From NCBI RefSeq assembly GCF_039555335.1, contig NC_092640.1, positions 27,251,446 to 27,315,445 on the forward strand: a stretch of DNA of 64,000 nt, in the 5' to 3' direction. Every line of letters starts with the position of its first letter. Positions within the stretch are counted from its first letter, which is position 1. Origin of the DNA: Amphiura filiformis (Eukaryota; Echinodermata; Ophiuroidea; Amphilepidida; Amphiuridae). Under the pieces are notes generated by a model. That model was not told the DNA's origin, did not search any database, and saw only the letters and a program-made list of their open reading frames with translations. Position numbers and translations under genes: made by a program. Positions 17,295 to 58,500 of the stretch are shown here, one piece after another.

Positions 17295-17424
17295 TCAATT
17301 AGCTATGTAAACGGAATCTCCGACCGCAACAGTGCCTTCAGCTTCAAGATTCATGTAGATACCAAAGCTAGGAGAGCCCGCTAGCTCTTTATAGGCTGGG
17401 TGTGATGCATCTACATTGCGGTAC
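17295..17424 (-). CDS. mtarc: mARC-A exon 7 (terminal)
   Basis: 130 nt; acceptor TTTTTCAG|G, stop TGA at 17295-17297. It encodes YRNVDASHPAYKELAGSP, GIYMNLEAEG and VAVGDSVYIAN. It has five to seven more codons than exons 7 of B and C. The following bases (TTAAATGGGAAGCTG on the plus strand) are shared with the mARC-C 3' UTR. Confidence 0.85.
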
Positions 17425-20400
17425 CTGAAAAAAAAAAGAACAAAAGAATAAATAGAATTGTATTCTTCGTGGTTTACGAGTCATTCTGATGTACCCACTG
17501 GTACCAACAAACCGTTCAATCTTGTTATCTTGTTATGTAGATTGTAAAAAGCGAGGTCTTTTTTTTGCGCCCGGGGGGGGGGGTCCCTAAGAAATGGTGT
17601 ACGGGGATGCTCAAAGGTTTTGAGGTGCTTTTTCATCGTTTTTGGTATACCAATGGGGTGAAGTTGTTTCGGGTATATTAATGACCCCTTATTTCTGTGA
17701 TGGTATTGAGATGGGCTGTTGTAAGTTTTTGGGTGATATAATGATGGGTCACCATTTCAGTAATGGTCACAGGGCACCTGAATATACTACCCAAATGACA
17801 TGTGAGAACAGTGAAACAGCAAAGTACTATGCACACAGCAAGAAAACGGACACAAGACACAAACTATTATTTAGTCACATTTAAATTATTATTTCATTCT
17901 GTAATCTCCTCTCTTCTTTTATAAATACATTAATATTTTATTCCTTACAATACAAAATTCTATACATCATTTATTTAGATCAAGTCATTTTATGATTATA
18001 TAAATATTTCCAAAGTTCAATTCCAATTGATCTGAAAGTTATTATTTCTGCTCAAAGTATGACTCAAATATCATTAAATGATTATACTTTCAAGTATCCA
18101 CAAAATAAATAATATTGCAATTTTGTGAATATAAAATGTATGCGCATTAGGCTGAGTTCACATAGAAGTATACGGTATACGGTATTCGCTATACGAAATA
18201 CGCTCATTCGATCAGGCTGAATTCATATAGGAGTATACTAAGTGAACTCAGCCTGGTCAAATGAGCGTATTTCGTATAGCTAATAGCGAGTATACATTTG
18301 TAGGTCAGTTTACCAATTTTCTTCGTCTAATCAAATGCTTGTAACTTTACTTCTTAAGGTCACATTGCATTGAATGAGGTGTCATAATATGCAGAATTAG
18401 ATAGTGCATCTATTTAAAAAAAATGAATTTACGCACATATGGTTTAGTTTTAAAATTAGGATGGTATACGCTGCACTAAAATCGAGCACGCACGATTCCC
18501 ACTATACGATACTATACGCAGGTATACGGCCTTTTCGAATAGTGCCTATGTGACCCGGTACTATGAAATTACCTTGCCCGATTTATGCTATACGCGTGCA
18601 CCTGCAAAACGTGCACCGTATACCCGAATAGTATACTTCTATGTGATCGTAGCCTTATGTGACCCGGTACTATGAAATTGTCTTGCTCGATTTAAGCTAT
18701 ACGCGTGCACCTACAAAACGTGCACCGTATACCCGAATAGTATACTTCTATGTGAACGCAGCCTTAAGTGTACATATCCAACTACACGTTTTGTAATTGC
18801 ACACCAATGTTTGCAAATGATTACAAATGCAATAATATGTAATTTCTTATCCAATTACAATTAGATCAATAGGATCAATCAAATTCCAAAAAGTTATATT
18901 TCTACATTTTAGCTATATGAAGAGCTTATTTCCAAACCGTGTTAAGTCCACAACCCCATGTGTCTCATTTACGTGTGTGATACCATCACAATTACTTTGA
19001 CAAGTTTGACATTAGCAACAATGAGTTGTACCATCAACAAGCTATTATTTACCATAACAATGCTGCATAACAATATGCAGACTATTGTTCTCATTTGGGA
19101 AACAAAGCCCTCACACAGTATTGTTATTGTGCGTCCATCCACTGTTTGCTTTGTAATGGTGCATCAAACTGAAATTATAATAACAACACATTACAACAGG
19201 GAAATCAGAAACATGGGATAGTGGACTTAACACGGTTTGGAAATAAGCTCTTCATATGTCAAGCACAAGCAATGATCAATCATCTAACATAGTTCCAGAA
19301 GGCCTATGCCATCAATAATTGGTTTCAACAACTAAGTGACTATCGAAAATAATCAATAATCAATGATCATGAGAACGATTTAACTCATGATGATCTTTCC
19401 ATAAGGCTGCGTTCACATAGAAGTATACTATTCGGGTATACGGTGCACGTTTTACAGGTGCACGCGTATATAGTTCAATCGAGCAAGGCAATTTCATAGT
19501 ACCGGGTCACATAAGGCTACGATCGCATAGAAGTATACTATTCGGGTATACGATGCACGTTTTGCAGGTGCACGCGTATAGATTAAATCGAGCAAGGTAA
19601 TTTCATAGTACCGGGTCACATAAGAGCTATTCGAAAAGGCCGTATACCTGCGTATAGTATAGTATAGTGGGAATCGCGCGTGTTCGATTTTAGTGCAGCT
19701 TATACCGTCCAAATTTTAAAAACCTAAACCATATGTGGGCAAATTCATTTTTTAAATAGATGCACTATCTAATTCTGCACATTATGACACCTCATTGAAT
19801 GCAATGTGACCTCAAGAAGTAAAGTTACAAGCATTTGATAAGACGAAGAAAATGGGTAAACTGACATACTCGCTATTCGCTATACGAAATACGCTCATTC
19901 GATCAGGCTGAGTTCACATAGTATACTCCTATATACTTCTATGTGAACTCAGCCTAAAGAAGTCCTTTTCAGAAGGCTATCAGTGATCATCAAACAAAAC
20001 TTTGAATCACCAATCAAAAACTTTACTCAAAACAAAAATCTCAACCTCTGCTGTGTATTACTTGTCACAAGAATTTATGTCAGAATGTTTCACAATGCTT
20101 GGCACAATTGACTTTTTTTTTTTTACAAAAGCTGCACTAATTTGAATCTTATTTAATAAAAATAATGTTCACATTAGATGACAAACATAATACATATCTA
20201 TCAAGTCATCTACAATATTTTTAAGTGTTTCAATCAATTCATGAAACAGTTTAATAATTTAATATCAAATATTTTGAAATTGAATATCAACAAATCAACA
20301 AATGTAGCATATCAACTTGTGTTCATCCAAAAATACAAGTTGCGTCTTTCATGTCTTTTCATTCAACAATAATTAAAGTCACATGAAAATTCTGTTAAAT

Positions 20401-23400
20401 AATCTAAACTTCCAAAATATATTAGATTATTACAATTAAATTTAAAAATAAAAAAAAAATATACAAATTCACATAATTTACAAATACTTTGCAATCCAGT
20501 TCAATACTGACAATTTTCAGTCTTCTTAAAGTGGCAGAGCTGGCCAAGTACCCTGGAGTTTCAGATGTTACAAATGCGGTCACTTCACCAACATTACAGC
20601 TGTTAACAAATCATCAACCTCACACAGATTGGTATTCATAATGAAGCGGCTAGCACACATCATAGTGGTACAGCTTGAATACTCATGGTTACGTTAAAAC
20701 TCGGTCCAGTTCTGATGACACTTAAGTTTACATGGTCAGGTCGGTCGAAAACTGGAAAATGATTTAAGATAAAAACCCAAACAAAAAATAACATGCTGGA
20801 AAATTATGAACAAAAACAAGCTATTCCCCTTTAATTTGGTTTAACTTCTTTCGAACACTCATCACATAAAATAATCCAGTTTCTCAAAACATTTCATATA
20901 AACACATTTTAACTCATTGCCATTATTGCCATTAATACAATCTTTAAATATTGCACATCAAATTCAATAAATGAAAAACATCCAAAATATGAAGTTAATC
21001 CATGCAAGATTTCATCAGTTTCTAAAAATGCATCACATTTCTATTTCCCAAATTTCATTATCTTCTTGCAATGACAGAGACAACAATAAGCAATATTAAA
21101 CATACATTATTTTATCAATGTCCATAACATAACAGAGAATGGTATACTCACTTCATTCCTTCAAAGAGTTGACTTCCAACTGATACATGATCGCATCACA
21201 TCATACCACACCACAACCAATGGACTGCAATTGATGTCCAACACAAGTGGAAGGTGCGACGACTGAAATACATTTATTATTTCAGCTCCCATTCTAAAAA
21301 CAAACTCTTTTGGTTATCATTACTGTCCTCCGCGGTGTAGATATTTCATTCTACAATGCCTCTTAAATTCCAGGTCTTACACCATAACTAACTGTCCTCA
21401 CAGGTGTAGATATTTCAATCTACAATGCCTCTAAAATTTGTAGGTCTTACACCAGTACCAAAAAGTTATTTTGATGATGCGATCATTTTTGCTAGCAACT
21501 ACAGACCCATGTCTGCTCTCAAACCATAGCTATGTGGAAGTGCTAGAGTGGAAATGGTAGAGAGATGGGTTGCTTAACTGATATAAGCGAGGTATAGTAA
21601 TCGGGTGTTTTTTTGCACTACGCAGGTATAGAGATGGTCAACATTCTGAAGTCTACTTTTAGCACCCCCTTACAAATATTTTCCAAGGACCCCCCCCCCC
21701 TCCCCGGGGTTTTTGCGTGGCAAATGAAAGCCTCTTTAACATGTCATTCTGAAAAATTAATTAAAATGCATATCAGGGAATACATAAGATTGTGCAGGAA
21801 ATACTGATGGTCGTGACATCGGGGACAGTTATCGGTAGGGAAGAGGGAGAGAGAGACTATCAGACTATCATCGTTCTGATGCCTCGTTCTCAAACTAATA
21901 TACTGGGACAAAATGCTTACTTTTAGAACGTGAATTTGTACAATTTCACAACAGAAGAGATGTTGCAAATCAAAGGCACGCTCCTGTGAGGGATCGAGCA
22001 AGGGTGTTATCTATTGCCATATTGAAGACGTTTGTATGTACAAAATGAATACCCGTACAGAGCAGAAAATGTGTCCGTTTTATAAGGGTATTGAACATAC
22101 GAAGGAACGTTTAACTATTAATATGATCCCTTGTTTGTAAAAATTATTATTATAATAAAGCAAGCGTGAGGTGTAAAAATTTGAGTTCATGTTAGTGCTT
22201 TACATACGTGCTATCTTTCCATTGATTTGTGTGATCTCCCGTACAACAAACAAAGGCTAAACGAGATTGCGATTAACATCTTTGACACAAACTTGCCCGC
22301 CTATACGGCCTCAAGGCGTCGGAATGAACTGTTTCGTTCTTCATCGTGCGGTTTATGCATCGCGCAGACAGTGACTATTTGTTCCACGAACGAGGTACTA
22401 GTATCAATTTGAAAATAACGGCATGCCGATTCACGTAATGGCCCGAATTATTTGTTTCTTGCGGCCAATTTTATATTAGGGGAGTACAAATAAAATTTAT
22501 TTGGAGCGCCCTTTTTAGTCTACTTCAAAACCAGACTGATTTGGATGTGCAGTGCACGGCCTGTCCACACAGACTGCCGTTATTGGCAGCGGAAGCGGCG
22601 GAGGGGGCAGTGGTCCTGGGGAGGGCACGATCTCCCTAAGTGTTCAAGGGGCAGTCCCCCATAAAAATTGTAAGATAAATTAAAATATTAAACAAAAGAG
22701 ATCTGTCTCCCTGGAATAATTGGTAAAATTGAAATTGTCCCAGTAAACATGGTAAAAGTGACCCAAAAGCCCCACCCCCACCCCGCCACTGTCTGTCGCC
22801 CTTCAGTGACCATAATTTTTTTCGATATATTTTGCTGCCAAAAGAGGGAAAATAGTGTTTTTGCGTTTCCTTGGTTAATCCGTGGTTGGTCGAATCCAAC
22901 CGAAAGTGTCCACGGGCCAACAATAAAAGTCCGAAATAAAGATGTCTCCACAATTTTTTCCTTTTGCCCATTGATTGATGACATATTGGCCTTATAGGAA
23001 CCAAAAGTTCCATTACTAATCTTGAAAAATAAATCCAGGACGTGTGATAGTAAATGTGATATCAAAACCCAATGTTACCTACGAATACCACTAGGATGCT
23101 TTCACTATCGCAATACTAATCAGCCTAAAACAAATGGAATATTCCCATTAACGCTTTTTTCGTGCAATGTAGACCGCAGGGTGTCAGGAAAATGCTAGCT
23201 CAACCAGAAAATATTTGTTTTTATTTTTATAACGCGATCAATATGATCTTAGTCAATTTATGCTAGTTTATTTTTGAAAATGAAGTTTAGGTCAGTTTCT
23301 GTATTTTATTTATCAAATGAGTATGAATCAATTTACACATTGTATAAGAACGAGTATGATATATGTTTTCAAGAATATTAGGAATTATACGCATACACCT

Positions 23401-26400
23401 AACGCTTTATACAATGAAAAGGTGAAGAAACCCGGGTATTCGTAGGTAACATGAGCGATTTAACAATATCTATATTGAGTTTATTGGTTTAAATTTTGCT
23501 ATTATGGTAATGAATTAATTAAATGGTAGTTTTTAGATCTCTTTCAGATGGTACGTCCAAATGAATAAATGCTATTACCTTAGATCAAAATTTTTTGATG
23601 CTTTTAGCAAGATTTTGACCACTTCATTTTGATATACAAGTAGTTAATCAGCAATTTTACATAATAAATAACTGTTGAATGAATCCGTATATGGGTAATA
23701 ATAGTGCCCTGGGGTACCGCTTAAAGTTTTTGACAATTAATTTCCATTGGTAGGGACACTTCATTACACATGTCATGTATTATGCTGTATTCGTAAGTAA
23801 CATTTCAGTATTTGTAGGTAAGAATTAGACTTTTGGTGGATATCGCAATCAAAACTTCATTTTATAAAGCACTTTGAATGTATTATTTTCTTTATGTGCG
23901 TTTATTGATACTTTAGACCCTATCATGTATTAATAATGTCGGTTCACAGCGGTTGAAAGAGGATTGAAGTAAGAAACAAAGGCACTAAAGTGACTTTAAT
24001 TTGCTTAATTGCACACAAATCGCTTAAAACCGTTATTGCAGACTTGTGAAGTCCATCTTGGAGTCAGTTACGTCGTGTGGGGGCAACTACAATTAGCTTT
24101 ATACCAGGGTCCATCAATGTGTTGTCTAGATCATGAGACAATGAGAACAGTCGTTTTTCCATGGTATTCGTAGGTAACCTTAGCGAAAACGTCAAAAGTT
24201 ACCTTCGAATAAATCAATTTGGACACAAATTACTCAGAAACCAGGAGGTCGGTAAACATTTAAAATGAAGCACACATGACAGTTGACAAATCCAAGTATT
24301 TATCCCTTCTAATCTTCTTTGAATCTGATTTTTCTTTCAAATGAGCAGACCGTCGTCTATTTCAGTACATATTTTTCACCAATTAAGCCGTATTCAGTTT
24401 TGCATGGTGGGTATGTATGTGAATTCGCAACGTTCATTGACATATGATTTGATAGCAAACATACAGGCCTTCGTTATGTACCAATATGGGCATTGGCATG
24501 AATGGCGGTGTTTCACAATACTGTCATGATGTCAAAATGTATTCGTAGGTAACATTCGGTTACCGAAATTTACCTACGAATACTTGCTTTTATTGTTGAC
24601 ATCTCAGAAATATTTAAACGCAGGTTATTGAAACTTGGTAGAAATAAAGAGTGTATTACCCTGCACCTATTGCTTAACTATTGTTTACTATTCTCTCACT
24701 TTGTGGAAATGACACAGCTTTTAACATGTATTCGGAGGTAATGCATATTTTTTACCAAACCTACCTTTGTGCCATTTAGAATTTCTGGCAGCTAAACACA
24801 ATAATAAAGATGTCCGAATGCAATGCATTTCAGTATTGGACATATCAAAGCTTGTATCAATTGCGCATTTATTAGTGATTTCCATTTTTAAAGATATATC
24901 TAGTGCTCTGAAAATTGTATTCGTAGGTAATGTAAAAAAATACCACTCAAAAAATTATCACAAAAAATTCATAATTATGTACAAATATGTGAAAAATTGA
25001 ACAGGCAATCTTTGAATACACACCTTTCAGGAAATCAATTTAGATTCAATCCAATGACTTCTTTTCATAACTGATTTAGATGTTTTTAAAAATACTTTAA
25101 GAAATATTTTGAAAAAATTGGTAAAAATAGCATGTTTTGGGGTCTCTGTGTCTAAGTTTTTCACAGAAGGGGGTCTTATTATATATAGCGCGAAGCGTAT
25201 GATCAAGGCGAATAATACAAATACAAAAACGAATGCCAATTGATTAATACTTTTAAGTTATGGCCCTGAACATGCCGTGTACACTTTTCGTTGGATTCGA
25301 CCGGTTAATATATACACGTTTGAATACGCACAAGAACTTTAATTATCCAAAGGATCCACTTTTCATTTGATGTGCATGGAATAAAGTTAGCTGTTGTTCT
25401 TATCGTGTTATAAAGTGGTACGTACGCGCGTATGTTTGTGGGAGTCATACGGCACTATATCGTGTATTCGGCACACGAACGGTCGTAAAGTGCAAGGCGT
25501 AAGGAACATCGCAACCTATCTACTGGTCTTAATTAATCAGGCAATAAAGAAGATGCAAGCCGCATTTATAATCGATATTTGTCAGGACGGTTGCGATGAC
25601 ACGTCAAGTAATAAGAGCCATTTGGGGGTGCAAATGTGCACTGAAACGCTTACGTTTTGAGAGTCTTGAGTGGTTCGTCACCAACAATTCCTGTTTCTGG
25701 ATCCACCGTTGTCTGTTTGCATCTAAAATAGAAAACAATGTATAACAGACCAAATAAAGTATCCTAAAAGTACACATTCTTCGGGTACACAGCAAGGTAT
25801 GTTGGCATAAAAAACAACAACATTGTAAAATTTTTTTGTTAGGGTGTTCTGGTTCGATAAATTGCTGATAATCTCTTTACTTTTTGTTAAAAAGAAGTAT
25901 GAGCTGTCTGAGACAATTGTTCATGTGACTGTGAAGTTGTTAAATCTATTTGGGACGAGCTCATTTATACTATGATCAATAGGCGGGAATTATTCGGTTT
26001 TTGTTACTGCGCGAGTCAATAAAGTTCCAACTTATGCACGCGTAAATTCACACGCCATTCTGTATCAATCCACGATGTTATGAGTCCCCGCCTATTAAGA
26101 GCTGATCAGAGTATATGTCATTGTTAATAAGAATGATATTGATTTTTCCTGTTCAAAATTTGATATTTGGTGTCCCAGATGATAAATTCCTTACTCATTT
26201 ATTCCTGATTTTAAAATATTACATCTGGCAAATTTCAAAATAAAATAAAAATAAATAAATAAATGTTGGTATCTATACAGCGCCTTTCACATGTGAACAT
26301 GTACCAAAGCATCATTAGAAAGCGTCATTAGAATATGTCAGCTGCCATACAATGCCCAAGGCATGCTCATACCTTTGGGCGGCGCTCAATGGACAGTATT

Positions 26401-29400
26401 CATAACAGCTCCCCATTTCACACCTGGGTGGAGAGGAGTAATCGAGATAAAGTGCCTTACTCAAGGGCACAACACGATGGCGTCGCCGGGGCTAGAACCC
26501 GCAACCTTCCGATTATGAGTCCTAGCCCGTTCCGCTCGGCCACCGTGCTCCCTAGCCAACCATTTTTGGCTAGGGAGCCAAAAATAGCCAACTATTTTTG
26601 GATTTAGGGCCCATGTTAAATTTAATAGGAAACAGAATACTTAATTGCTAAGGGTAAAGACAAACTTTCTGCCCATTTCCGCAAATGGAGATTTGATTTG
26701 TAATTTTTGACGTATTTATTTTTTAAAGTATTGGTGGCTGCATGTTCTGTTGGTTTGTTTTGTATTTTCACACTTTCTTACTAGATGGTTTCATTGGTTT
26801 TTTGTGCAATTTGTTTTTGTAAAAGGTGATCTTTTGTGATTTTTTTTTTATGATTGCTATGTAATTCTGTTTTGTGTGATTCTTGAAAAATAAAAAACAC
26901 TGAAATATATATATATAAAAAGAAGTATGAGTATTTTTTAATATACGGTATTTGCACTTTGCGACTGATTAAAAAATCTTTCCAAGTGAAAGCTGGGTCT
27001 GCATTATTGTTTATTCACACATACTGCCTTTTGCCTTCTTTTAAAAGAAACATTCATATTCACCTCTATATAATATATATTGGTTACTTACCGTCCACTT
27101 CGGATAGTTTTTCTTAGAATAACGTTGTCTCCTATCTTAATGTACTTCCAGTTATCCTACATATAGAAGTAAAACAATCCAGTAATTTTGTAATCTGTTT
27201 AATGATCAAAGACTAAAATAAGACATACTAATAGCTTTAAAAGTAATGGGGAAAAGTTTCGTTATAACATGGCTACTAATATTGCCATCTTGGATATGAG
27301 ACCAATATTGGTGGGAATGTTTGGCTAATCAATGTCTGTGGCTATCCATGTATTTTCCTATCTCCTTGTACCTGTTCTTTCCGGTGTACCTCAAGGCTCT
27401 ATCACGGGCCCCTTCTGTTTGTTACTTTCATCAATAATAATCCTAACCCTAAACCCTGGACTAAACGAATGTCTGTGAAATCGATAATAATTTTCGTTAA
27501 AAGCTATAGAAGCAGATTCAATAGCTGATATTTATGTTGCATCGAAAACCGTAAAAACTTGATAGTTAGCAAATGTGCTTAGTATCAAGCGCTTTTAAAC
27601 CATTTTTTAGCGCCATCCACAAAAGTGTAAAGGGTTTTGAGCAAATCATCAATACACATAATTCTACACGAACAAGTAAACCTGCAAATGTGTGTCAACC
27701 CATTAGCTCAGTTGGTAAAGCGCCGGACTTTAACAATTTCATGTTTTCAAAAGCGCTCGATAGTAAGCACATTATGCTATAGAGTTTTTACAATATTCGA
27801 CGTCGAATGTAGTAGTAATGGTTGAAATATAAAAAAATACCTCCTCAAAAGCAGTCAATTCCTGCCCCTGCACCACAAAATTAGGACGGAAGTTTCTGGC
27901 AGTAATTTTCTTCTCCAGTCTACTATTCAGATCATCTAATGATGCTTCAGTGAACAGGTTATACAGGGCCATGTCTTGGTAGATGCTCTGGAACATGAAG
28001 CAATATAAACATACAATGAACATGCTATACAGCGCTTCGTCTTGATAGATGTTCTGGGACAGAGAGTAATAACATTTTGCAATGAACATGTTATACAGCG
28101 CTTCGTCTTGATAGATGTTCTGGGACAGAGCGTAATAACATTTTGCAATGAACATGTTATACAGCGCTTCGTCTTGATAGATGTTCTGGGACAGAGAGTA
28201 ATAACATTTTGCAATGAACATGATACAGCGCTTTGTCTTGATAGATGTTCTGGGACAGAGCGTAATAACATTTTGCAATGAACATGTTATACAGCGCTTC
28301 GTCTTGATAGATGTTCTGGGACAGAGAGTAATAACATTTTGCAATGAACATGTTATACAGCGCTTCGTCTTGATATATGTTCTGGGACAGAGAGTAATAA
28401 CATTATACAATGAACATGCTATACAGCGCTTCGTCTTGATAGATGTTCTGGGACAGAGAGTAATAACATTTTGCAATGAACATGTTATACAGCGCTTCGT
28501 CTTGATAGATGTTCTGGGCATGAAGCAATGAACATTATACAATTAACATGTTATCGTCTTGGTAAATGCTCTGTGATGTTAAACAAGAACATTAAGGTTG
28601 GTCTTTAACCCTGGAATCATGGAAACTTTTGGGCCTCATAAGTGGTAGCCTGTTGGTCTAAAGTATCCAAAAGTATCTGTTATGTCAAATTCGGGTAAAA
28701 ATGCTCAATTTTGGAGAAATCCATGTACATTTTTAGGAACAATATAGCGCACAAAAAAATCTTAAATTTCTTAAATTAATTTTCAAAAACTAGATATAAA
28801 TCGTTGATCTCAGCACAAAGTGGCGTACGTGAAGGACAAAATATGTGTTTGAAGGATGTGTTACTAATAACAGAGTCGATATTCCTCCAATGTTATCTCT
28901 GTTAAAAATGCATCTTTATTAGGTAAAAAGGAATAACTTATACGTCACTATGTGAAATAAAACGGAAAACTTTGAAAAATCACTCCACGCCACTATGTGC
29001 TGCGACCGACGAAATATCTGGGAAACATTTGTCTATTTGTTTTCAAAGATTTTGATCAACTTCGAGAATATTCACCAAAATGGTTGATATAAACTCACAG
29101 AAAAACATAATTGTCACCCCAAAAAATGAATAAATAAATAAAGGCTTCCTAGATATTTATATCTAATTTTGAAAATTATGGATTATGCTTTATAAATAGA
29201 AAGAAGAAGAAGCGCATTGATTTATAGTGCGCTATTGTCGCTGACCACTACGGCCCATATCATTCCACAAACCATTAAACAACTACACATGGACTTGCAG
29301 CTAAGAAGCGCACATCCTAGACCTTCCACAGATGACCATCGCAACCAGGATCAGCTCCCCGAGTTTCGTACGGGTTACAACGAGACAATTAGCAGTAAGT

Positions 29401-32400
29401 TCCTTGTCCAGGGGAATTTCAAGCTAACTCAATTTTTACACGAGAGAGTACTAACCACCTCAAGGATTCGAACCCGCAACTTCTCACACCATAGTCGAAC
29501 GCCTTATCGATTGAGCTAACTTGACAATATAAGATATTTGGTTTTCGGATAAATGACTCTTCGGACTAATGATCCTAACCTGTAATCGTCATTATCAGAG
29601 ACGAAAAAATCGGATGCAAAACTGTTTTGACAAAGAAAATAAATGAAATGACAAAATAAAATAAAACTACGTTAATCATTTTTATAACTTACAGAACTTG
29701 TTTGTATATCCTTGGTGAAGCAGACAAGCTTATGACCGGTGGTCTTCAGATAGGTATTAAGCCAATTAGAAACTTCGTCACCGCAATTATATCCAGTACT
29801 ATTTCTACCAAAAAGTCTATTATGGATAAATATTAATAACACTACAATTTTAGAGTCTTGATAACAATCCCGCCCTGTATTGTTGTTAATAGGAGTCTTG
29901 AGCAGATAATTTCCTTTATACTCGTATTTAGTCATATAATATTTTGAATCAGTTTTCCAATCTTTAGTAAACTGTGTTTGTTTTACGGTGACGTTTTGAT
30001 GACAAAACATCGAAACATGCGAGCGTACCTCTCACATTATTGGTAAGTCAGACTCATTCAGTAGGCCTATATGTTATAAAAATATGAAATGGATGACATC
30101 ATTGGTTATTTCTATAGATTATGTCATTATCCTAGTCTCCCCACTTTACTGATACCATGTATCCTGGGATCCATTTCGCTAAACTTTACGAGCTAAGCTT
30201 CGTAAGTCTCAAAATCAACTTACGACGTATCGTAAGTGTAAGTTCTATTTCACTAAACTTACTTACGAACAGTGTTACTTGTTAGAAGGATATTAGAAGG
30301 AGTGAAGGCCAAAAATCTTCCAGCTATAATAACCTTCATTGACTTCAGAAAAGCCTTCGATACTATTCACCGAGGCAAGATGCTACAGATCCTCATAGCC
30401 TATGGGATACCAAAACAGATTGTGGATGCAATTGGAAGGACATACAAGAATACCAGAGCCAAAGTGATCTCCCCTGATGGAGAAACTGAGCTATTTGACA
30501 TCCTAGCCGGAGTTCTTCAAGGTGATACCCTTGCTCCCTATCTGTTTGTGACAGTGCTCGACTATGCTTTGAGAATGGCTATAGATGGCAAGGAAGAAGC
30601 ACTCGGATTCCATCTAGAAAAGAGAAAGAGCAGACGAGTTGGGCCAGAAGTGGTAACCGACCTGGACTTCGTGGATGACATCGCCCTCCTGTCAGAGGAA
30701 ATTAAACAAGCTCAGGAACTTCTGCAAAGGGTCGAAACATCAGTCGGAAGAGTCGGCTTAAAGATGAATGCCACCAAGACAAAGTTTATGTCTTTTAACC
30801 AAGATCAGCAGGTTAACATCAGCACAACTAATGGCACAAAGCTAGATGAAGTGAAAGACTTCAAATATCTCGGAGCATGGATGGCTAGCACAGAGCACGA
30901 TGTCAAAACACGTAAGGCAGCAGCTTGGAGAGCATGTAACAGCCTAAACAAGATCTGGAAGTCTGCTCTGCCAAAGAATTTCAAACTGCGGGTCTTCAGT
31001 GCAACAGTAGAGTCTGTGTTAACATATGGATGTGAAGCCTGGACCATAACTCCAAAACTATCTAAAGAGCTGGACGGCTGTTACACTCGAATGCTTAGGG
31101 CAGTGTACAACATCCATTGGAAGCAGCATATAAACAACAAAGAGCTGTATGGAGACCAGCCAAGACTCTCAGAGAAGATTAGAGAAAGGAGGACACGCTT
31201 CGCTGGACACTGCTTCAGGAGTAAGTGCGAACCTGTCGCCAATCTGATAACCTGGACCCCCAAACACGGAACAAGAAAGCCTGGAAGACCACCCATTACA
31301 TATGTTGATGTTCTCAAGCAGGACACTGGACTACAAGCATCAGACCTGGGTACGGCAATGCAAGACAGGAGGATATGGAAAGCTGTCGTGGTTCGGGAAA
31401 ACCATCCGAAATAAGCAAGTAAGCAAGTGTTACTTGAAGTGGATGACATTTTTCGGTAATTGCTTGATGTGATGGGACATTGATTGTAGGTATGCCTAGT
31501 ACGTCTAACAATACCATTTCCATTTCACAAAACGTTTAACTCTTCGTAACTCAAGTAACCGTTCGTAAGCTACGAATGCACTTTTTTTTAGAGGTAACTG
31601 TACAAAGGGTCCCTGTAGTAAATCCCTATTACTCACGAATGATTCCGTTCGTAAGTCACTTTGTGAAATGGAACTTACGATACGTCGTAAGTTACGATTA
31701 ATTTTGAGACTTACGAAACTTCGTAAAGATCCCAGAAGTGATCCCAGATGACATCATAAATTAGTAAATACCCCTACCATGCTAAATATGATACTATAAT
31801 ATCAGACCATGTGCATCCAGTAATGTGGATCGCATTCTTGGTATACTCGATGTACCGGCACATTCATGGCATATTATGTATCTAATAATACCCGAAGTTG
31901 ATGACATTCGTGGTAAGGAATGTAATGAGACATCGATTAAAGACATCCAAATGTTTTCTAGGCATTCGAGCTGCATACAGCCTTACCTGAAGTGGATGAC
32001 ATCATTGGTGATCGCTTGATGTAACGGGAATTTGACTGTAGGCATCCCAGGTGCATCCAGCTGAAGAGATTTACCACCCTCCGATTGGTTGGGATGAATA
32101 AAGGCGAGGGCTCTGTCCTGTCGCATGGATACTAAGGAGTTATTCTCATCCAGGATCACGTAGTGTCTTGATGAAAGAAGAAAGTAACAAGAATACGTTG
32201 AAAAATGAGTTGAATACAGACGTTAGTCAATTTTTGCGCCAACCATCAGTAGGCTATACCGATTTTTCGCAAAGAGCACCCAAATCTTTTTAGGGCACTT
32301 TTGCCAAAATGGCGAAAGTTGCCGAAAAATGGCTTGTCCCCCCAGCATGGTCGACCCCTCTCTATAGGATGACTCATGCTACTATAGAATTCGGTCGATT

Positions 32401-34528
32401 CACGGCAATACGATGAATCTCACGCGTGCATACACATATTATGCACCGCCTTATTTTATTGCCCCCACACGTGCAGTGACTTCGTGATCATTGCACATTA
32501 AAAAACTTCAAAAAAGGAATGGGCGGCTCCATTAGGGAGTGTTCAGAAATACTCTGGTGGGGGTGGGGGGGGCTGGAAAATATGTAGGGGGTCAAATTTT
32601 TTAGGAGTTCTGAATAGGGGGTTAAAAAGTTTTGGGTGTATGAACAGGAGGGGTTAAGATGTTTTTGGCACGTAGGGGGGGGGGGGGGTGTAAATTTTTT
32701 TTCGCTCGCTGCGCGCGCAAATGTTCCCATATTAAACCAGAACAAAAGTACATTTGATCCAGTATTAAAAATTGTCATCTATAACTTAATTTTGCGGTTT
32801 GTGTCAGTTCTTTCTGGTCAGCTCTTTAAATCACTAAAAGCTGCAATATCTTTGCTCTTCTTTAGTTTTGACAATTTTTACAATGTTTCATTTAAACAGA
32901 TTATTCATTTATTATCACTGATATATACAACTACATCATGTTGCATTACAATTATAGGCGGAGGAAACTTGGAGAACCGGGGTACACGCCCCCTAATTTT
33001 TTCCATGGGGGACATCCCCTAAAAATCATGAAAGAAGAAAAAATAAAGCAATAATTGCCATGTGCACCTTTTTTTTAACACATCGATAAGCACCATGTTT
33101 TGGGCCCAAATAGGGTAAAATTGCAAAATTTTGCGCTTCGCGATCACGCGAACTGGCCCATCAATTTAATAGCAAAACACACCATTTTGGCAGTAGTGTA
33201 GACAGGGGGCGGAAGGGCCCCTGACAAAAAATGAATGAGAAAAGTGCCCCTCTGACAAAAAATGAAAGAGAAAATCTGGAGCAAGGAGACCCTTTTCTAT
33301 ATAAATTCAACCCGATCATGGGCCAAAATAGTGCAAAATACAAAATGTTTGCACGCTGTGTGCGCACATTGTCACAATAAAGGCATTTTCCTTCCATCAT
33401 GGGCGAAATACACAATTTTTGCATGCATTTTGTCCCAATAAAGCCTTTTTTGAAGCTCAAATACAGGTACAGTCTCTCTAAAAAACAAACCGGTATATGT
33501 ATTTGCAACTGCAATTTATTTTCTCGTCTGTGCCCCCGAAATTTTATTCACCCCCGACCAAGAAAACTGGCTACGCCTCTGTATTTTGGGCTAAAATAGT
33601 CTTGTTTTTGCGCGTTTCGCCGCAACAAAAAGTCGCAGTAAACATAGGCGTAGATCCCGGGGGGTGGTACATACAATCATCCCCCCAATGTTGACGACTG
33701 TACATGTATGTGTGTTTCTGACCATATTTGGCCATTTTAGCCCCCTAAGTACAAATTTTTGCGCGCTTCACGCACATGTAATCCACTTTTACATCAAATT
33801 CCATTCGTTTAGCTTCCAAATGGCAAACATTTTAGCGTGCTACTTTAAAACATTTCCACAATTCCACATATTTTATATCAATGACATGCGTACAATTTCA
33901 TTGCACTTGAATACAAATTTTAGTATCATTAATGCCATTTGAATGCTCGAAGAATTGAATTAGTAGAATATGGTACATTATGATGGGGGGGTCAAAATAG
34001 TTTTGAACCTATATGAGGGGGGGGTCAAAAAGTTTTAGGTCCATTAAGAGGGGGGTCAAAAAGTTTTGGGTTCGCGAAGAGGGGGGTTAAAAAATTTCGA
34101 CATGAAAAAAAAAATTCCGCCCCCCACCAAAGTATTTCTGAACACTCCCTTATACGTTGGGAAATAATCGCAATTACATGGATTTCAATGTCAAAATTAT
34201 TCTACTGATATTAATGAAACGGACTATGGACATGACCCATATAACATGCATATCTGAATTAAAGTATAGGCTGGAATTGCCATTTCAAGCAGGCTTACCT
34301 ATCACAGACCCCTGCATTGCTCTTTATTCCGTAAAGCTTCGTACACGTCGCTTCAGTTATTTCAATTCCTCGGCACGCCTTCACAGGATGTATAAAGATA
34401 CGACCGATTTTACCCACTTCTTGCCACGATTTTCGAGTTAAGAATTTCTGCTGTCCATACTTGTATAGTCCATATACAGCTATTCCTGCAACGCAACCTA
34501 CTGCTATAGCTTTTAAATTATCCGACAT
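17295..34528 (-). CDS. mtarc: mARC-A: mitochondrial amidoxime reducing component, MOSC family (7 exons)
   Basis: The seven exons are 34299-34528, 31987-32166, 29693-29816, 27841-27987, 27092-27156, 25654-25722 and 17295-17424. Lengths sum to 945 nt: 314 residues plus a stop. All junctions are GT-AG and phases agree (2,2,0,0,2,2). The product is a molybdenum-cofactor enzyme that, with cytochrome b5 and its reductase, reduces N-hydroxylated substrates; the family resides in the outer mitochondrial membrane. The N-terminal helix (AIAVGCVAGIAVYGLYKYG) fits a signal anchor. The MOSC_N part has IHPVKACRG. The MOSC part has YQDMALYNLFTEASLDDLNS, NFRPNF and GRCKQTTVDPETG, with the cysteine equivalent to the Mo ligand of human mARC1. 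Alignment to human mARC1 is ungapped across the exon 2-3 junction. The last intron is 8.2 kb. A 66-bp array adjoins exon 4. Confidence 0.88.
18149..19956. mobile_element. 1.8-kb giant foldback element in mARC-A intron 6
   Basis: It starts AGGCTGAGTTCACATAGAAG and ends with the reverse complement. The arms (about 18149-18774 and 19402-19956) carry the same GTATAC-rich sequence on opposite strands, including a roughly 117-bp direct duplication inside each arm (GTGACCCGGTACTATGAAAT occurs twice). They also contain the arm of the 409-1072 family. There is no transposase frame. Confidence 0.85.
18915..19257. mobile_element. MITE nested in the loop of the 1.8-kb palindrome
   Basis: Terminal inverted repeats of 37 bp, ATATGAAGAGCTTATTTCCA onward and the exact complement ending at 19257. 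It lies in the unpaired centre of the larger element, so it is probably a later insertion. Confidence 0.75.
19957..23070. other. mARC-A intron 6, mostly unassigned
   Basis: AT-rich intronic DNA with no gene seen. It holds a poly-C tract near 21690. It also holds a segment at about 22190-22365 (ACAAACTTGCCCGCCTA) shared with the last intron of mARC-B at about 37717-37890. Two overlapping minus-strand open frames at 22636-23065 have no family signature. Confidence 0.5.
21326..21475. repeat. Two-copy tandem duplication of about 70-80 bp
   Basis: Both units contain GGTGTAGATATTTCA, CTACAATGCCTCT and AGGTCTTACACCA, back to back. Confidence 0.65.
23074..24932. repeat. Recurring 15-bp motif GTATTCGTAGGTAAC with 188/376-bp spacing
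   Basis: Clear plus-strand matches start at about 23435, 23787, 24163, 24539, 24728 and 24917. Inverted or variant copies are near 23074, 23808, 24198 and 24569. Successive intervals 23787-24163-24539 are 376 bp and 24539-24728-24917 are 189 bp. Sequence between motifs looks mostly unrelated. It may be a decayed tandem repeat whose motif core survived, or phased binding sites. Function unknown. Confidence 0.6.
25654..25722 (-). CDS. mtarc: mARC-A exon 6 (Mo-binding cysteine)
   Basis: 69 nt; acceptor ATTTTAG|A, donor AAAAC|GTAAGC. It encodes CKQTTVDPETGIVGDEPLKT; the first Cys aligns with the molybdenum-coordinating cysteine of human mARC1. Confidence 0.9.
26235..26562 (-). mobile_element. 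tRNA-derived SINE
   Basis: Read on the minus strand it begins with a tRNA-like head (GTGGCCGAGCGG A-box region, GGTTCTAGCCCC B-box). A body with TGCCCTTGAGTAAGGCACTT follows, a core common in SINEs of aquatic animals, and it ends in AATAAATAAATA. It lies in mARC-A intron 5. Confidence 0.75.
27092..27156 (-). CDS. mtarc: mARC-A exon 5
   Basis: 65 nt; acceptor ATATGTAG|GAT, donor GGACG|GTAAGT. It encodes DNWKYIKIGDNVILRKTIRS and G, then the first two bases of the Arg before the Mo-binding cysteine. Confidence 0.9.
27250..27430 (+). pseudogene. LINE RT scrap in mARC-A intron 4
   Basis: The plus strand reads SGVPQGSITGP near 27388-27420, the conserved RT GVPQGS motif. The homologous scrap sits at about 41310-41420 in the same intron of mARC-B, so the insertion predates the gene duplication. 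Confidence 0.6.
27548..27791. mobile_element. MITE with a tRNA A-box-like core (copy 1)
   Basis: The inverted ends (ACCGTAAAAACTTGATAGTT and a degraded complement) enclose ATTAGCTCAGTTGGTAAAGC, a tRNA D-arm/A-box-like sequence. The better-preserved copy is at 45477-45737. Confidence 0.6.
27841..27987 (-). CDS. mtarc: mARC-A exon 4
   Basis: 147 nt, phase 0 at both ends; acceptor GTTCCAG|AGC, donor GAGGAG|GTATTT. It encodes SIYQDMALYNLFTEASLDDL and NFRPNF. Its acceptor and first 12 or so codons are the source of the neighbouring 66-bp array. The donor GTATTT is weaker than the GTAAG of copies B and C. Confidence 0.9.
28015..28540 (-). repeat. 66-bp array of the exon 4 splice acceptor plus exon start
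   Basis: Units start at 28015, 28081, 28147, 28213, 28277, 28343, 28409 and 28475: period 66 bp with one 64-bp unit, plus a degenerate piece after 28527. On the minus strand every unit holds a 3' splice site (CTGTCCCAG) followed by codons for NIYQDEALYNMF, the homologue of exon 4's SIYQDMALYNLF. Because 66 is a multiple of three, the frame stays open from the array into exon 4 for the nearest units. Copy B has no array; copy C has about two diverged units at 55870-56010. Confidence 0.9.
29207..29528 (-). mobile_element. tRNA-derived SINE, second family (copy 1)
   Basis: Minus-strand head GTTAGCTCAATCGATAAGGC with B-box GGGTTCGAATCC; body with CAAGGAACTTACTGCTAATT and CAGCTCCCCGAG (plus strand). 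A second copy is at 39998-40354. It lies in mARC-A intron 3. Confidence 0.7.
29693..29816 (-). CDS. mtarc: mARC-A exon 3
   Basis: 124 nt; acceptor CCATAATAG|A, donor TTCT|GTAAGT. It encodes LFGRNSTGYNCGDEVSNW and HKLVCFTKD. The pyrimidine tract is weak, but this acceptor gives the right phase and an ungapped alignment to human mARC1. Confidence 0.85.
30282..31425 (+). mobile_element. 5'-truncated non-LTR retrotransposon (LINE) with reverse transcriptase frame
   Basis: An open frame of about 380 codons (to 31414) encodes the RT palm onward: FIDFRKAFDTIHRGKML, GVLQGDTLAPYLF, and LDFVDDIALLS where FADD is usual, then LKMNATKTKFM, YLGAWM and a C-terminal RFAGHCFR segment. The endonuclease and the N-terminal RT are missing. 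The insertion is flanked by an 11-bp target-site duplication AGTGTTACTTG (30271-30281 and 31426-31436). It ends in a short AAGCAAGT repeat rather than poly(A), as RTE-like elements do. An intact frame with a good duplication suggests a fairly recent insertion. The Ala-to-Val change in the catalytic box is unusual. Confidence 0.85.
31426..31510 (-). pseudogene. Decayed duplicate of mARC exon 2 3' end
   Basis: Minus-strand translation retains LGIPTINVPSHQAIT, matching PGMPTVKFPLHQAIT of exon 2. It was the LINE target; the target duplication covers its splice-donor end. Confidence 0.7.
31870..31985 (-). pseudogene. Second decayed exon 2 duplicate abutting mARC-A exon 2
   Basis: GAAGTTGATGACATTCGTGG resembles the exon 2 end (GAAGTGGATGACATCATTGG) and lies about 105 bp from the real one, in tandem. 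Similar scraps sit beside exon 2 in copy C (about 61160-61260) and, weaker, in copy B (about 44350-44420). Confidence 0.55.
31987..32166 (-). CDS. mtarc: mARC-A exon 2
   Basis: 180 nt; acceptor TTTCATCAAG|A, donor TTCAG|GTAAGG. It encodes HYVILDENNSLVSMRQ and ends with PLHQAITNDVIHF. Degenerate duplicates of its 3' end lie just downstream at about 31870-31985 and at 31426-31510. Confidence 0.9.
32534..34150. mobile_element. 1.6-kb TIR element with GGGGTCAAAAAGTTTT repeats
   Basis: The ends GGGAGTGTTCAGAAATACT and its complement (GTATTTCTGAACACTCCC) are flanked by TTA on both sides, a 3-bp duplication like PIF/Harbinger elements. G-rich subterminal repeats GGGGTCAAAAAGTTTT are inverted at the two ends. 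No transposase frame is seen. It lies in mARC-A intron 1. Confidence 0.7.
34299..34528 (-). CDS. mtarc: mARC-A exon 1
   Basis: The ATG is at 34528; the donor is GATAG|GTAAGC at 34298. The exon encodes the membrane anchor, then QEVGKIGRIFIHPVKACRGI and a C-terminal VCDR whose Arg codon is split (phase 2). Confidence 0.9.
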
Positions 34529-39900: not shown

Positions 39901-42900
39901 ACGATATTTGAATCTCGAAAACAGCTTCCAATATATCCAAAAAATTTCTATACAAAACAGTTTGTCTAACAAAAACAAAAAACAAAAAAAAAAAGCGCCG
40001 TTATTTATAGTGCCTAGACGTTGTTCCACAAGCCTCGGCACACTTTAGGTTGTCGCTGACCACTACGGCCCACATCATTCCATAAACCCATTTAACAACA
40101 AACATGGACTTTGCTGCTTCAAGAGCGCACATCCTAGACATTCCACAAATAACCTTCGCAACCAGGAGCAGCTCCCCGAGTATCGTACGCGGGATCGTAC
40201 GGGTTACAATGAGACAATTAGCAGTAAGTTCCTTGTCCAGTGGTATTTCAAGCTAACTCAATTTTCCACGAGAGCGTAGCCCGGGAGGCACCGCCAAGGT
40301 TCTAACCCGCAACCTCTCGCACCATAGTCGAACGCCTTATCGAGCTAACTTAACAGACGATGAACAAATAGGCCTAGATCAAACTGATCATACATTCTTA
40401 TTCAGTGGGAGTGGTCTAGTTCGAAGTCACATAATCTGATTGGACAATCGGACAATTTCGGGTGTTTTGCCTTTAATGCATATCGGCCACTTACCGTCCA
40501 CATAGGTTAGTTTTTCTGAGAATAACGTTGTCTCCTATCTTAATGTACTTCCAGTTATCCTGCAAATAGAGGTAAAATAATCCAGCAATTACTGAGAATA
40601 ATTACGTTACACCGTGCACAGAGTACTCAGTGTGTGCAATCAACGAAGCATCGCACACTTATGGTTCACAGTGCGGAGGGTATTCCTGAAATAACACATA
40701 TTATTATTTATATCAGGCTTTTGAGCGATACAATAAAACTGTATATTGTACAATATTTGCAAAATACCCGGATGCAATACAATATTTTTGAATATTGTAC
40801 GCGTATCTCGTACGCGTCGCGCGTTACCATGGTGACGGCACCAACACTCGTCATGATACAACAGCACAACAATAAAGACACCATAGCGGCTCACAGGAGA
40901 TTTCGTACTGTATAAACAAGTAAAATCACTAACTTATTTCGCGGCAATTCTGGATAATGATAACCTTAGGAAATATAATCCACATCTACAAATAAACTAT
41001 ATAAATTATCTATATATAATTATTCCGAAATTGTCTTTGGAGAGTAAAGAGCAGAAAACAAGAAGGTCAAAAGATAAATTTTCATTTTACCGCATAGCAA
41101 AAGCCTGATATAAATAATAATAATAATATTGAATAGCTTATTTTCGTGTGATACAAGAATATATTGCACTCGATAGAAAAATATTGCACTCGTCTTCGAC
41201 TCGTGCAATATTTTCTATCTCGTGCAATATATTCTTGTATCACACTCAAAGCCATTCAATATTATATAAATATTAGCTTTAAAAATAATAGTGCTTGTTG
41301 TTATTAAAAGCCAAGGTAACATGGCTAATGATATTGCCTTCTTGCATATGAGACCAATGGTGAAATATTGAAATGTTCTGGCGTGCCTCAAGGCTCTATC
41401 ATGGGCCCTCTCTTAAGTACCAGAAGTATTAAGCCAACAAGAAAGACTAGCAAGTTGATTATCATCCAACAAGGATTTTCTTCAAGCGGTTCAATAAACT
41501 CGCAGAGCCATCAGAATTTACAAATGAGACAGAATACGGTTTCCAAACCACAGAATAAACAGCTCTCTTTAGAGCCGCCAGACTTTGTAAATGGAATTAA
41601 TAAGATTGGTATTTTCGTTAACTTAGATATTCATAGCAAGAACAACCAAGAAGTATGATTTAGGTTTAAATAAAAATTTCTTAGACAGGAGAATTCTCCA
41701 ACTCACTTTGCGACGCCTCTGTCTTGAATTTTATGCACAATTTATATTTCTTTGATCCAGATGGATAAAGAAAATAAGCGCAGACGTCAAAAAACAACAA
41801 CAAAAAAACAAAAAACAAAACAAAACAAAAACAAAAACCAAAAAAACAAACAAACAAACAAAAAAAAACAGAAAAAAAAACAGACCCCCTTAAAAAAACC
41901 CACACAAAAAAACAAACATACTTACCTCCTCGAAAGCAGTCAATCCCTGCCCCTGCACAAGAAAATTAGGACGGAAGTTTCTGACAGTAACTTTCTTCTC
42001 CAATCTGCTATTCAGATCGTCTAATGATACTTCAGTGAACAGGTGATACAGGGCCTTGTCTTGGTAGATGCTCTGCAACATGAAGCAATACCATTAGATA
42101 TTATAAGCATTAAACATGAAGGTTGGTCTCAACCCTGGAATTATGCCAACGTTTGGGCCTCATAACTGCAAAATTGTTGGTCTAAAGTATATGGATAAAA
42201 TAATTTAGAATGACAAACATGGCACTTGACAAATCCACATAATTATATTGTGGACATGTGATTCAAATTTTGGTACAAATGCTCAGTTTGGGAGAAAATC
42301 CAAAAACCATTTCTTGACCCTAATTGTTTTGGACAACATAACAAAAAAGAATCTTCAGCAATCTAGGAAACGTTTTTGCTTTATTATTTTGAATTTTGAC
42401 CAACTTTGACCAACTTTGACAAATTTATAATTCACCAACATTTTTTGAAAATGCATGCTAAATTGGGTTAAAAAAATTATAAAAACACGATTTTCACCCG
42501 AATGCCAATCATTTTTGGTCCAATTTTTAAAAACAAATATTGTATGATTTGCGATTCTTTAAAACCACATACAAATGTATTAGTTTCAATAAAATTAGAG
42601 GGGGTGCTTACATTGTATTGGGCATCGCCATCTTGTGCTATTTGCGGTTTTCTAAAAACGCACATTGGAATATATAAGTTTCAATAATATTAGAAAGGGT
42701 TAAAGTTACGGGTATTGTGGTAGGGTTTAGGATAAGGTTAGCATTATGGTTAGGGTTAATGTTAGATATAGTGTTAGGATATGGTTATGCTATGGTCAGT
42801 TAGGATTACACTCAGGGTTAAGTTTAGGGTAGGTTAAGTTTGGAGTAAGAATTAGGCTTTTTATGTCATAGGTTAGGGTAAGGGTTTACATCTATATCTA

Positions 42901-55500: not shown

Positions 55501-58500
55501 GATGAAATGTATTGTTAGCATCATAATTGAATAACGCCGTGTTAGGAAAAGTAACCATGTTTTGCGATGCCTTTGCGTTTCGCAACAACCAGTCCGATTA
55601 CTCGCCTGTATCCATGGCGACGCCTCTCTCTCAGTCTTGATTTGTTTAAGTCCATGCAAAATCTACATTCCTTTGAACCAGATACATGTTTGAATAAATA
55701 AACATACTTACCTCTTCAAAAGCAGTCAATCCCTGTCCCTGCACCAAAAAATTAGGACGGAAGTTTCTGACAGTGACTTTCTTCTCCAGTCTACTATTCA
55801 GATCATCTAATGACGCTTCAGTGAACAGGTTATACAGGGCCTCGTTTTGGTAGGTGGTCTGAAGGGGTATGAATTAACATTAAACAAAGAACAGGTTATA
55901 CATCACCAGGTCTTGGTAGACGCTCTGGGATATGAAGCAATGACATTAAACAATAAACAGGTTTTACAGTACCGGGTTTTGATAGACGCTCCGCACACCG
56001 ACATCGCCCGGTTAATAATTACATTATACAACCAGAGACACTGAAATGAATACACGGGATCGATACACGTAAATGTGCTATGCACGGTTGATATTCAGAC
56101 GATAAATCTTTGGATACCGGGGTGAAAAATGATGAATATCTCCCGTAAATGATTTCGTATAAAGAAACCAGATGTGGTTCCTTGCACTTGAATATATATT
56201 TTGAACAGATATGATAGTCGTTAGTTTGCGCTTTGAGAGAGTAGCTTGCGTCTTGAGCTGAAAAAGTAACCAAAATTCAAGATTTTAAATAGCGCAGCGT
56301 AGACCCTCGTGGAGGTAGTCTCGGGCCAGACTGTATGTGGCTATCACGAACATACAGGATCGACGAGTGTCAGACCGACTGACACAAACTGGCTGTGTAG
56401 GAGACTATCGAAGAGGCAGTCTATAAACAGATGACAATGGCGAATGTATGTTCGCTGACCGTACAGAGGTCAGTCACAGGCTAATGTCATTAGCCTTAGT
56501 CGGATGTCCTTCAGCCCACTATGCATTTAAAAAATATTAAACAGGTGGGAATACAATGGCCATGCGTGGCTGTGGATTCAACCTACCATGGCATTTTCTG
56601 CCATGAAGATATCGGGGCGATGACACTGTGCTCCGGGCTTTGAAACCATGACATTAAAGGTGGATGTCTCCGGCAATCACAAGTCCAACATTATGCATTA
56701 TATGTTAGAAAATTAATTATCAACCACGAATCACGTTGTTTTATTTTAAACAAACTCATATTGACCATAAAAACGAATTAGAAAAGTCGTCTTTCAACAC
56801 GCGATATTCAAAATTCCCGGGTCGTAATTGTCTATCAGAAGGGTTGTATGGATTTCAACTGGGATAGCTCGTTATGCCAACAAAAAGGGTAGTCCGTATA
56901 GAACAAATGATAAAAATTAAAAAATTAAAAATAAAATAAAATAAAACTACGTGAATCTTTCCATTACTTACTGAACTGGTTTGTAAATCCTTGACGAAGC
57001 AAACAAGCTTATGACCGGTTGTCTTCAGAAAGATATTTAGCCAAGTAGAAGCCTCTTCACCACAATTATATCCAGCTTTATTTGTGCCAAAAAATCTAGT
57101 ATGGATGGATAAGTACCCAGCAAACACAAAAACGTTTTTAAAACGTTTTAAATAAGTTATATTTTGGGTTTTGGTTTAGGTAAAAACGTTTTAATAACAT
57201 TAAAATGTCGGGTTATATATAGGTCATGAAATCCTTTTAAAACGTTTTGTATGAAACACACTACAACAATATTTTTAAAATGTTTTCGAAATGTCATTGT
57301 AAACTATTTTTGCACACATTTTTGGCCAAATATTTTGTCAACACTTAAGGGATCTAAAATGAGCGTTTATTGCGTTTCGACAGTATTTTTTTTGGGACAT
57401 GAGAGCACCTCAGACCTATCGAATTGCATTCTGAATACGAAGCATGTCTTTCTGATATCAAATAATTTTCATTTTTTGAAAATCACAATATAATACAAAT
57501 TTTATGACAAATTATAAAAATTTGATATTTTTCAAATTTTTGATATATAACAGTCCTCGAAGTAAATTATATAAATCTAATGATATATTCTTAAAGTGTA
57601 TGTAGCAGGAGGAAAAGCCGACGGTCAATTGAAAATTTTGACCTTTCATATTGAAGATATGGATTTTTTCCCAAAAGACCTAATTTTTTTTTTGTGTTTT
57701 TTGGAAAAAAATCCATATCTTTAATACGAAAGGTCAAAATTTTCAATTGATCGTCGGCTTTTCATCCCACCTACATACACTTTAAGTATAAATCATCAGC
57801 TTATAAAGTTTACTTCAAGTACTGTTAAATATCAAAAATATCAATTTTAATGATTTGCCATAAAATGTGTATTAAATTGCGAATTTCAAAAATCAAAATT
57901 ATTTGATATCAGAATGACATTCTTCGTATTCAGAATGCAATTCGATATGTCTGATGTGCTCTAATGTCCCAAAATAAATACTGTTCAAACGTTCATACCC
58001 CAGCCCTTAAATAACATTATGTTAAAATATTTGCACCAGCAAACACAGAAATGTTCTTAAAATGTTTTTTTACAAAACGTTTTAATAACATTTAAATGTC
58101 GGGTTATATAAAGGTCGTGAAAACATTTTTAAAACGTTACTGTAAATATTGTGGGCAAACATTTTTTGCAAAATATTTTTTCAACCCCAAAATAACATTC
58201 TGTTTAGAATGATTTGTACCAAGTTTTCAAAAATGTTTTTGGAATGTTATTAACACGTTTATTTATTTTATTATATCTTCTTTAGCCTGGGGATACCCAA
58301 TCAGTGTAAAAACACTGTTTTCCATGGGTGCCCAGGGTTCAAACAAAATACATCAAAAGGTTAAACCATTACATATGAAATATGTGTACATCCATATCAA
58401 AAGGATGCACCTGTGTCGGCCGCCACATAACAACCGGTAACAAGCACCACACCCACCCCAAGCGGGGGCCACTCCATAGCATCCCCAAGTCACGTTTTCA

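Follow-up and report, generated by a model that had tools for sequence, protein, structure and literature searches.

The boundary between intron 3 and exon 4 of mARC-A, one of three genes for the MOSC-domain amidoxime reductase mARC in the window (the whole stretch of 64,000 nucleotides analyzed here), is preceded by a tandem array of copies of itself. We consider this array to be, most likely, a mirage-type minisatellite of decoy acceptors that are ignored in favour of the genuine acceptor at 27987. According to this model, the intron 3/exon 4 boundary would have been tandemly duplicated, with 39 nt of exon start and 27 nt of intron end in each unit. The duplication probably predates the parting of copies A and C of the gene, or was passed between them, and repeat turnover would then have expanded the duplicate in A, while that of C decayed. 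The array acceptors would remain within intron 3 as decoys, while the genuine acceptor, which adjoins the exon body and its donor, would make the main mRNA. Exon definition would be expected to prefer the acceptor closest to the exon body, exon 4 being 147 nt long with the genuine acceptor versus 213-730 nt with the array acceptors. Ten acceptors ahead of one exon, several of about equal score, constitute a natural test of spliceosome choice, and the locus is useful in that its three tandem paralogues show no array, decayed units and an expanded array. If the array copies are ignored, the locus shows in nature how exon context can overrule decoy acceptors; if they are used, protein length or output would be adjusted by how long the array is.

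The three mARC paralogues lie in tandem on the minus strand (17295-63395) and share their exon layout. Copy A (17295..34528) has seven exons (34528-34299, 32166-31987, 29816-29693, 27987-27841, 27156-27092, 25722-25654 and 17424-17295) and an intact frame of 314 codons, whose product carries the MOSC_N and MOSC domains (PF03476, 8.8e-21; PF03473, 1.5e-20); its solved relative is mARC1 (chain 7p41_D, 4.9e-47). Copies B (46007-36821) and C (63395-52466) likewise have seven exons and intact frames, and exon 7 measures 130, 115 and 109 nt in A, B and C, respectively, via in-frame indels. Judged by dN/dS (A-B 0.58, A-C 0.46, B-C 0.42), the three copies are under moderate constraint. Their dS values range from 0.15 to 0.24, with 0.151 for A-B and 0.183 for A-C. 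The G+C content is 37.0%, that of Branchiostoma being higher, and Rfam and tRNA scans gave no match.

The array lies within intron 3 of copy A (minus strand), ahead of the genuine acceptor of exon 4 (27841..27987; 147 nt, phase 0 start, first exon base 27987, acceptor tatattgcttcatgttccag|AGC, donor GAG|GTATTT). An earlier note on this DNA had described a 66-bp array at this exon, and its existence is confirmed: TRF reports 27951-28554 with a period of 66, 9.2 copies, 91% matches and a score of 957. The lag-66 self-identity is 0.81, compared to a maximum of 0.327 among 1000 single-base shuffles, and hence the array is beyond chance. Each full unit consists of a 39-nt homologue of the exon 4 start and, after it, a 27-nt intron end that includes the AG, so the description of a minisatellite built from a splice-acceptor/exon boundary also stands. 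Eight near-identical units had been counted. We find these eight, of 66 or 64 bp, starting at 28513, 28447, 28381, 28315, 28249 (64 bp), 28185, 28119 and 28053, together with a decayed ninth unit of 57 bp (starting at 28570) that had been missed, and the unit at 28053 is less similar to the others than had been thought.

Numbered outwards from the genuine acceptor, units A1 (27988..28053), A2 (28054..28119) and A3 (28120..28185) are 66 bp each, A4 (28186..28249) is shortened to 64 bp by a 2-nt deletion, A5-A8 (28250..28513) are again 66 bp each, and A9 (28514..28570) is the decayed 57-bp outer unit, with an AG of its own (catcacag|AGCATTTACCAAGAC). An AG precedes all nine units of copy A and one of the two units of copy C. 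The 3' splice site that was said to be the same in every unit is indeed so in seven of the eight, which are preceded by CTGTCCCAG, while the unit at 28513 has CATGCCCAG instead. With A4 (64 bp) and A9 (57 bp, decayed) omitted from the identity table for their length, units A2, A3 and A5-A8 are 94-100% identical to one another, two pairs being fully identical (A8 and A2; A5 and A3). A1, whose intron half is similar to the genuine intron end, for that reason reaches only 80-86% identity with these units. The copy A array therefore has homogenised interior units and diverged edge units.

To define what each acceptor would encode, ten in silico transcripts were built, in which exons 1-3 continue at one acceptor each. 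The acceptor at 27987 yields the 314-aa protein. Those at 28053, 28119 and 28185 yield 336, 358 and 380 aa, that is, 22 (NIYQDEALYSMFIVCLYCFMFQ), 44 and 66 additional residues from A1, A1-A2 and A1-A3, all open and in frame; the exon 3/4 junction being in phase 0, this agrees with the earlier proposal that the nearest acceptors add multiples of 22 residues. The other six of the nine upstream acceptors lead to premature stops, all within the array, leaving three that are productive. The 64-bp unit puts these six out of frame by one base, and three of them (28570, 28513 and 28447) already run into the in-frame TAA of A9 or A7. The earlier description of the units as in-frame does not hold for the unit at 28447, which carries such a TAA, and the limit of three to four usable units that had been attributed to the 64-bp unit is to be corrected: exactly three keep the frame and stay open. 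Since six of the nine upstream acceptors would truncate the protein while the gene maintains an intact 314-aa frame (dN/dS of 0.58 and 0.46 against B and C), we favour the interpretation of the array acceptors as decoys.

The three productive acceptors nevertheless lend themselves to a different explanation, in which A1-A3 serve as partly used alternative 3' splice sites, giving rise to mARC-A isoforms with 22, 44 or 66 more residues at the exon 3/4 junction. The phase 0 junction, the open frame and the 66-bp spacing of A1-A3 all speak for such isoforms. Moreover, at this junction, which the earlier note placed beside the cofactor-pocket segment, the sequence alignment gives the solved mARC1 chain 13 extra residues; length is therefore not fixed here, which suggests that changes in length are tolerated at the junction. 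(The site of the T4 lysozyme fusion in the mARC1 structure was considered as evidence that the exon 3/4 site tolerates insertion and was rejected, as the jump in the chain falls between query residues 101 and 123, in exon 2.) However, an open frame is weak evidence for use, since a given frame is open in 20329 of the 34069 27-nt stretches of intron in these genes, and in the last 27 nt ahead of 9 of 18 real acceptors. The exon part of each unit is open by descent, and a period divisible by three has a prior of one in three. In addition, the A1 insert is hydrophobic (GRAVY 0.80), and the farther units might be used as well, giving stops. On balance, we regard the isoforms as unlikely.

Splice-site strength was assessed with a position weight matrix (PWM) built from 15 other acceptors of the three genes, which are paralogous triplets and make it a rough guide only. 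Five array acceptors (28447, 28381, 28315, 28185 and 28053) score 3.60, slightly above the real site at 27987 (3.19), and hence the array acceptors appear possible as splice sites on predicted strength; those at 28249 and 28119 score -0.58, and the two outermost ones -8.30 and -9.57. The scores of A1-A3 (3.60, -0.58 and 3.60, versus 3.19) thereby count in favour of the isoforms. When the 15 PWM acceptors are left out in turn, every one of them scores above the three genuine exon 4 acceptors. Among 1528 other intronic AGs, 3.6% equal or exceed the score of the real copy A site, and 2.9% that of the best array acceptors. Copy C has an upstream acceptor, at 55924, that outscores the real one (0.48 versus -3.48); splicing there would yield a truncated protein, which suggests that the choice of acceptor depends on context and not on strength. 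Copy C, with its frame kept (dN/dS of 0.46 and 0.42), presumably ignores the acceptor at 55924.

The donor of exon 4 (27835-27843, minus strand, in copy A) reads GAG|GTATTT in A and GAG|GTAAGT in B and C. The GTATTT donor could weaken exon 4 definition in copy A, and it thus joins the five scores of 3.60 versus 3.19 and the open, in-frame A1-A3 among the points against the decoy interpretation. It also bears on the idea of unproductive splicing, whereby the outer acceptors would take some of the transcripts, and premature stops followed by decay would lower or buffer mARC-A output according to array length. Apart from the weak donor, this idea draws on the six of nine upstream acceptors that give premature stops, three of which (28447, 28381 and 28315) score 3.60, above the real site. 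The intact frame of mARC-A, the poor scores of the two outermost acceptors (-8.30 and -9.57) and the precedent of lancelet mirages, for which the available accounts describe no interference, all argue against it, and we hold it to be very unlikely.

The decoy interpretation gains from a comparison with the paralogues, where the earlier note was right in assigning no units to copy B and two decayed ones to copy C. The two 66-bp units of copy C (55859..55990, minus strand; starts at 55990 for C2 and 55924 for C1) lie before its exon 4 (55858-55712); the outer one lacks an AG (gcgg), and both have in-frame stops. For copy B (exon 4 at 41926..42072, minus strand), comparison of the boundary with its flanking intron revealed no duplicated unit upstream of exon 4. 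Aligned over 28 columns, the intron parts of C2 and A9 agree in 24; they therefore have nearly the same duplication junction, which is probably shared by descent or exchange. A TAA occurs at the same place in A9, A7, C2 and C1, within GTATAA or GTTTAA, and the single-copy intron end of B contains gtttaatg, in an alignment to the unit that needs 16 gap columns. From these occurrences we infer that the second codon past the exon fragment was probably a stop in the first duplicate, which would have been a non-coding decoy. The openness of the frame in the inner A units would then probably be secondary, a change in one unit that later spread. Given the two identical pairs and the six units that are 94-100% alike, compared with a dS of 0.15-0.24 among the paralogues, the array was recently expanded or homogenised. 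A simple history is opposed by dS, which places copy B, not C, closer to A; therefore, either the duplication was lost in B, or sequence passed between A and C.

Arrays of this kind are known as mirages, which are lancelet tandem repeats across exon-intron boundaries (PMC3087553). The BflGb6 array consists of intron end and exon start, with six versus three units in two haplotypes, and is homogenised inside and diverged at its edge (PMC3087553); for Adh3, somatic instability is cited in the same globin paper (PMC3087553). As far as the published accounts at hand describe them, the mirages of Adh3, BflGb6, BflGb9 and troponin C, and the similar repeats of PGBD5, resemble the mARC-A array in being boundary-spanning minisatellites with splice signals in their units, and in both systems either exon boundary can be affected. 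Adh3 mirage units measure 10-72 bp (PMC3087553, PMC3902484), and those of mARC-A 66, 64 or 57 bp. Because a boundary-spanning unit, AG signals and a homogenised interior with a diverged edge are all found in mARC-A, we conclude that its array is most likely another, inert case of this known kind. It differs from the lancelet mirages in residing in another gene, and in that the decayed units in paralogue C and their lack in B help to order its origin. Within the sources covered by our literature search, reports of mirage repeats were found in lancelets only. By analogy with the lancelet arrays, the length of the mARC-A array likely differs between individuals.

According to the globin paper, Adh3 data and globin RT-PCR suggest that regular splicing is unharmed by mirages (PMC3087553), and mirages of the Adh3, globin and troponin C genes are reported as causing no splicing disturbance (PMC3087553, PMC3902484). 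These reports support the interpretation of the array acceptors as decoys and count against the isoforms. The globin paper also states that repeated sites might act as cryptic splice sites and new introns (PMC3087553). One lancelet PGBD5 gene model, which lacks EST or mRNA support, reads 57 residues from the repeats (PMC3902484), and is a point in favour of the isoforms. The tuning of splicing or protein length that had been suggested for mARC-A retains its three in-frame acceptors but is otherwise weak: six of nine upstream acceptors truncate, an ancestral TAA is likely, both copy C units have stops, and the lancelet precedent goes the other way. That the array is an adjustable dial, in which copy number, perhaps varying by individual or cell, sets the share of the +22 to +66 or poison acceptors, is quite improbable.

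The lancelet literature also raises the matter of assembly. One draft-genome mirage has been called aberrantly assembled (PMC3087553), and the repeat number of PGBD5 differs between two genome versions, although re-sequencing is reported to argue against an error there (PMC3902484). An origin of the length or existence of the mARC-A array from mis-assembly is extremely unlikely in light of its unit-specific variants, including the 64-bp unit and the decayed outer unit, and of the copy C units, which have diverged independently. Copy number, more than the existence of the array, is what could be wrong.

Two other systems share features with the array. Tandem alternative 3' splice sites, such as NAGNAG and duplicated acceptors, place several acceptors before one exon. 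The mARC-A array likewise has multiple putative acceptors ahead of one exon, some of them in frame, but its spacing is 66 nt with the exon starts duplicated. Mutually exclusive exon arrays comprise homologous coding pieces that are tandemly repeated, as are the coding pieces before exon 4 of mARC-A. This assignment was rejected: such an array would have an acceptor and a donor in every unit, whereas the exon fragment has GC instead of GT at its end in six of the nine A units. GT is present there in A1, A7, A9 and both C units; the GTATGT of A1 is only 27 nt from the real acceptor, and A7 and A9 have GTATAA.

Finally, all 36 internal boundaries of the three genes were compared, each with its own flanking intron, against 200 shuffles that keep base composition only. 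Four boundaries beat all 200 shuffles, namely the exon 4 acceptor and the exon 2 donor in both A and C, with none in B. Four more do so at the 95% level only (the intron 1 and intron 5 acceptors of A, and the intron 4 donor and intron 6 acceptor of B); by chance, about 1.8 of 36 would be expected to pass this level. The exon 2 donor boundary of copy A has a decayed duplicate in intron 2 (31430..31496, minus strand; score 67 versus a shuffle maximum of 28) and a second, partial one with the exon side only (30085-30109, minus strand; score 40 versus 28). That of copy C, also decayed and in intron 2 (61156..61196, minus strand), is modest, with a score of 35 versus shuffle maxima of 34 and 29. 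With exon 4 acceptor and exon 2 donor duplicates both beating the shuffles in A and C, boundary duplication seems to recur in these mARC genes, on acceptor and donor sides alike, in keeping with the mirage interpretation.

Intron 2 of copy A also holds a retroelement, with a reverse transcriptase frame on the plus strand, antisense to mARC (30257-31414; PF00078, 6.1e-21), and the two exon 2 donor duplicates of copy A flank this frame. Elsewhere in the window, one continuous reading frame, 1168 aa between stops (6993-10499, minus strand), encodes a long leucine-rich repeat array and a C-terminal part that is, by eye, seven-helix receptor-like; tandem arrays of 72, 216 and 288 bp lie within it at 8503-10047.
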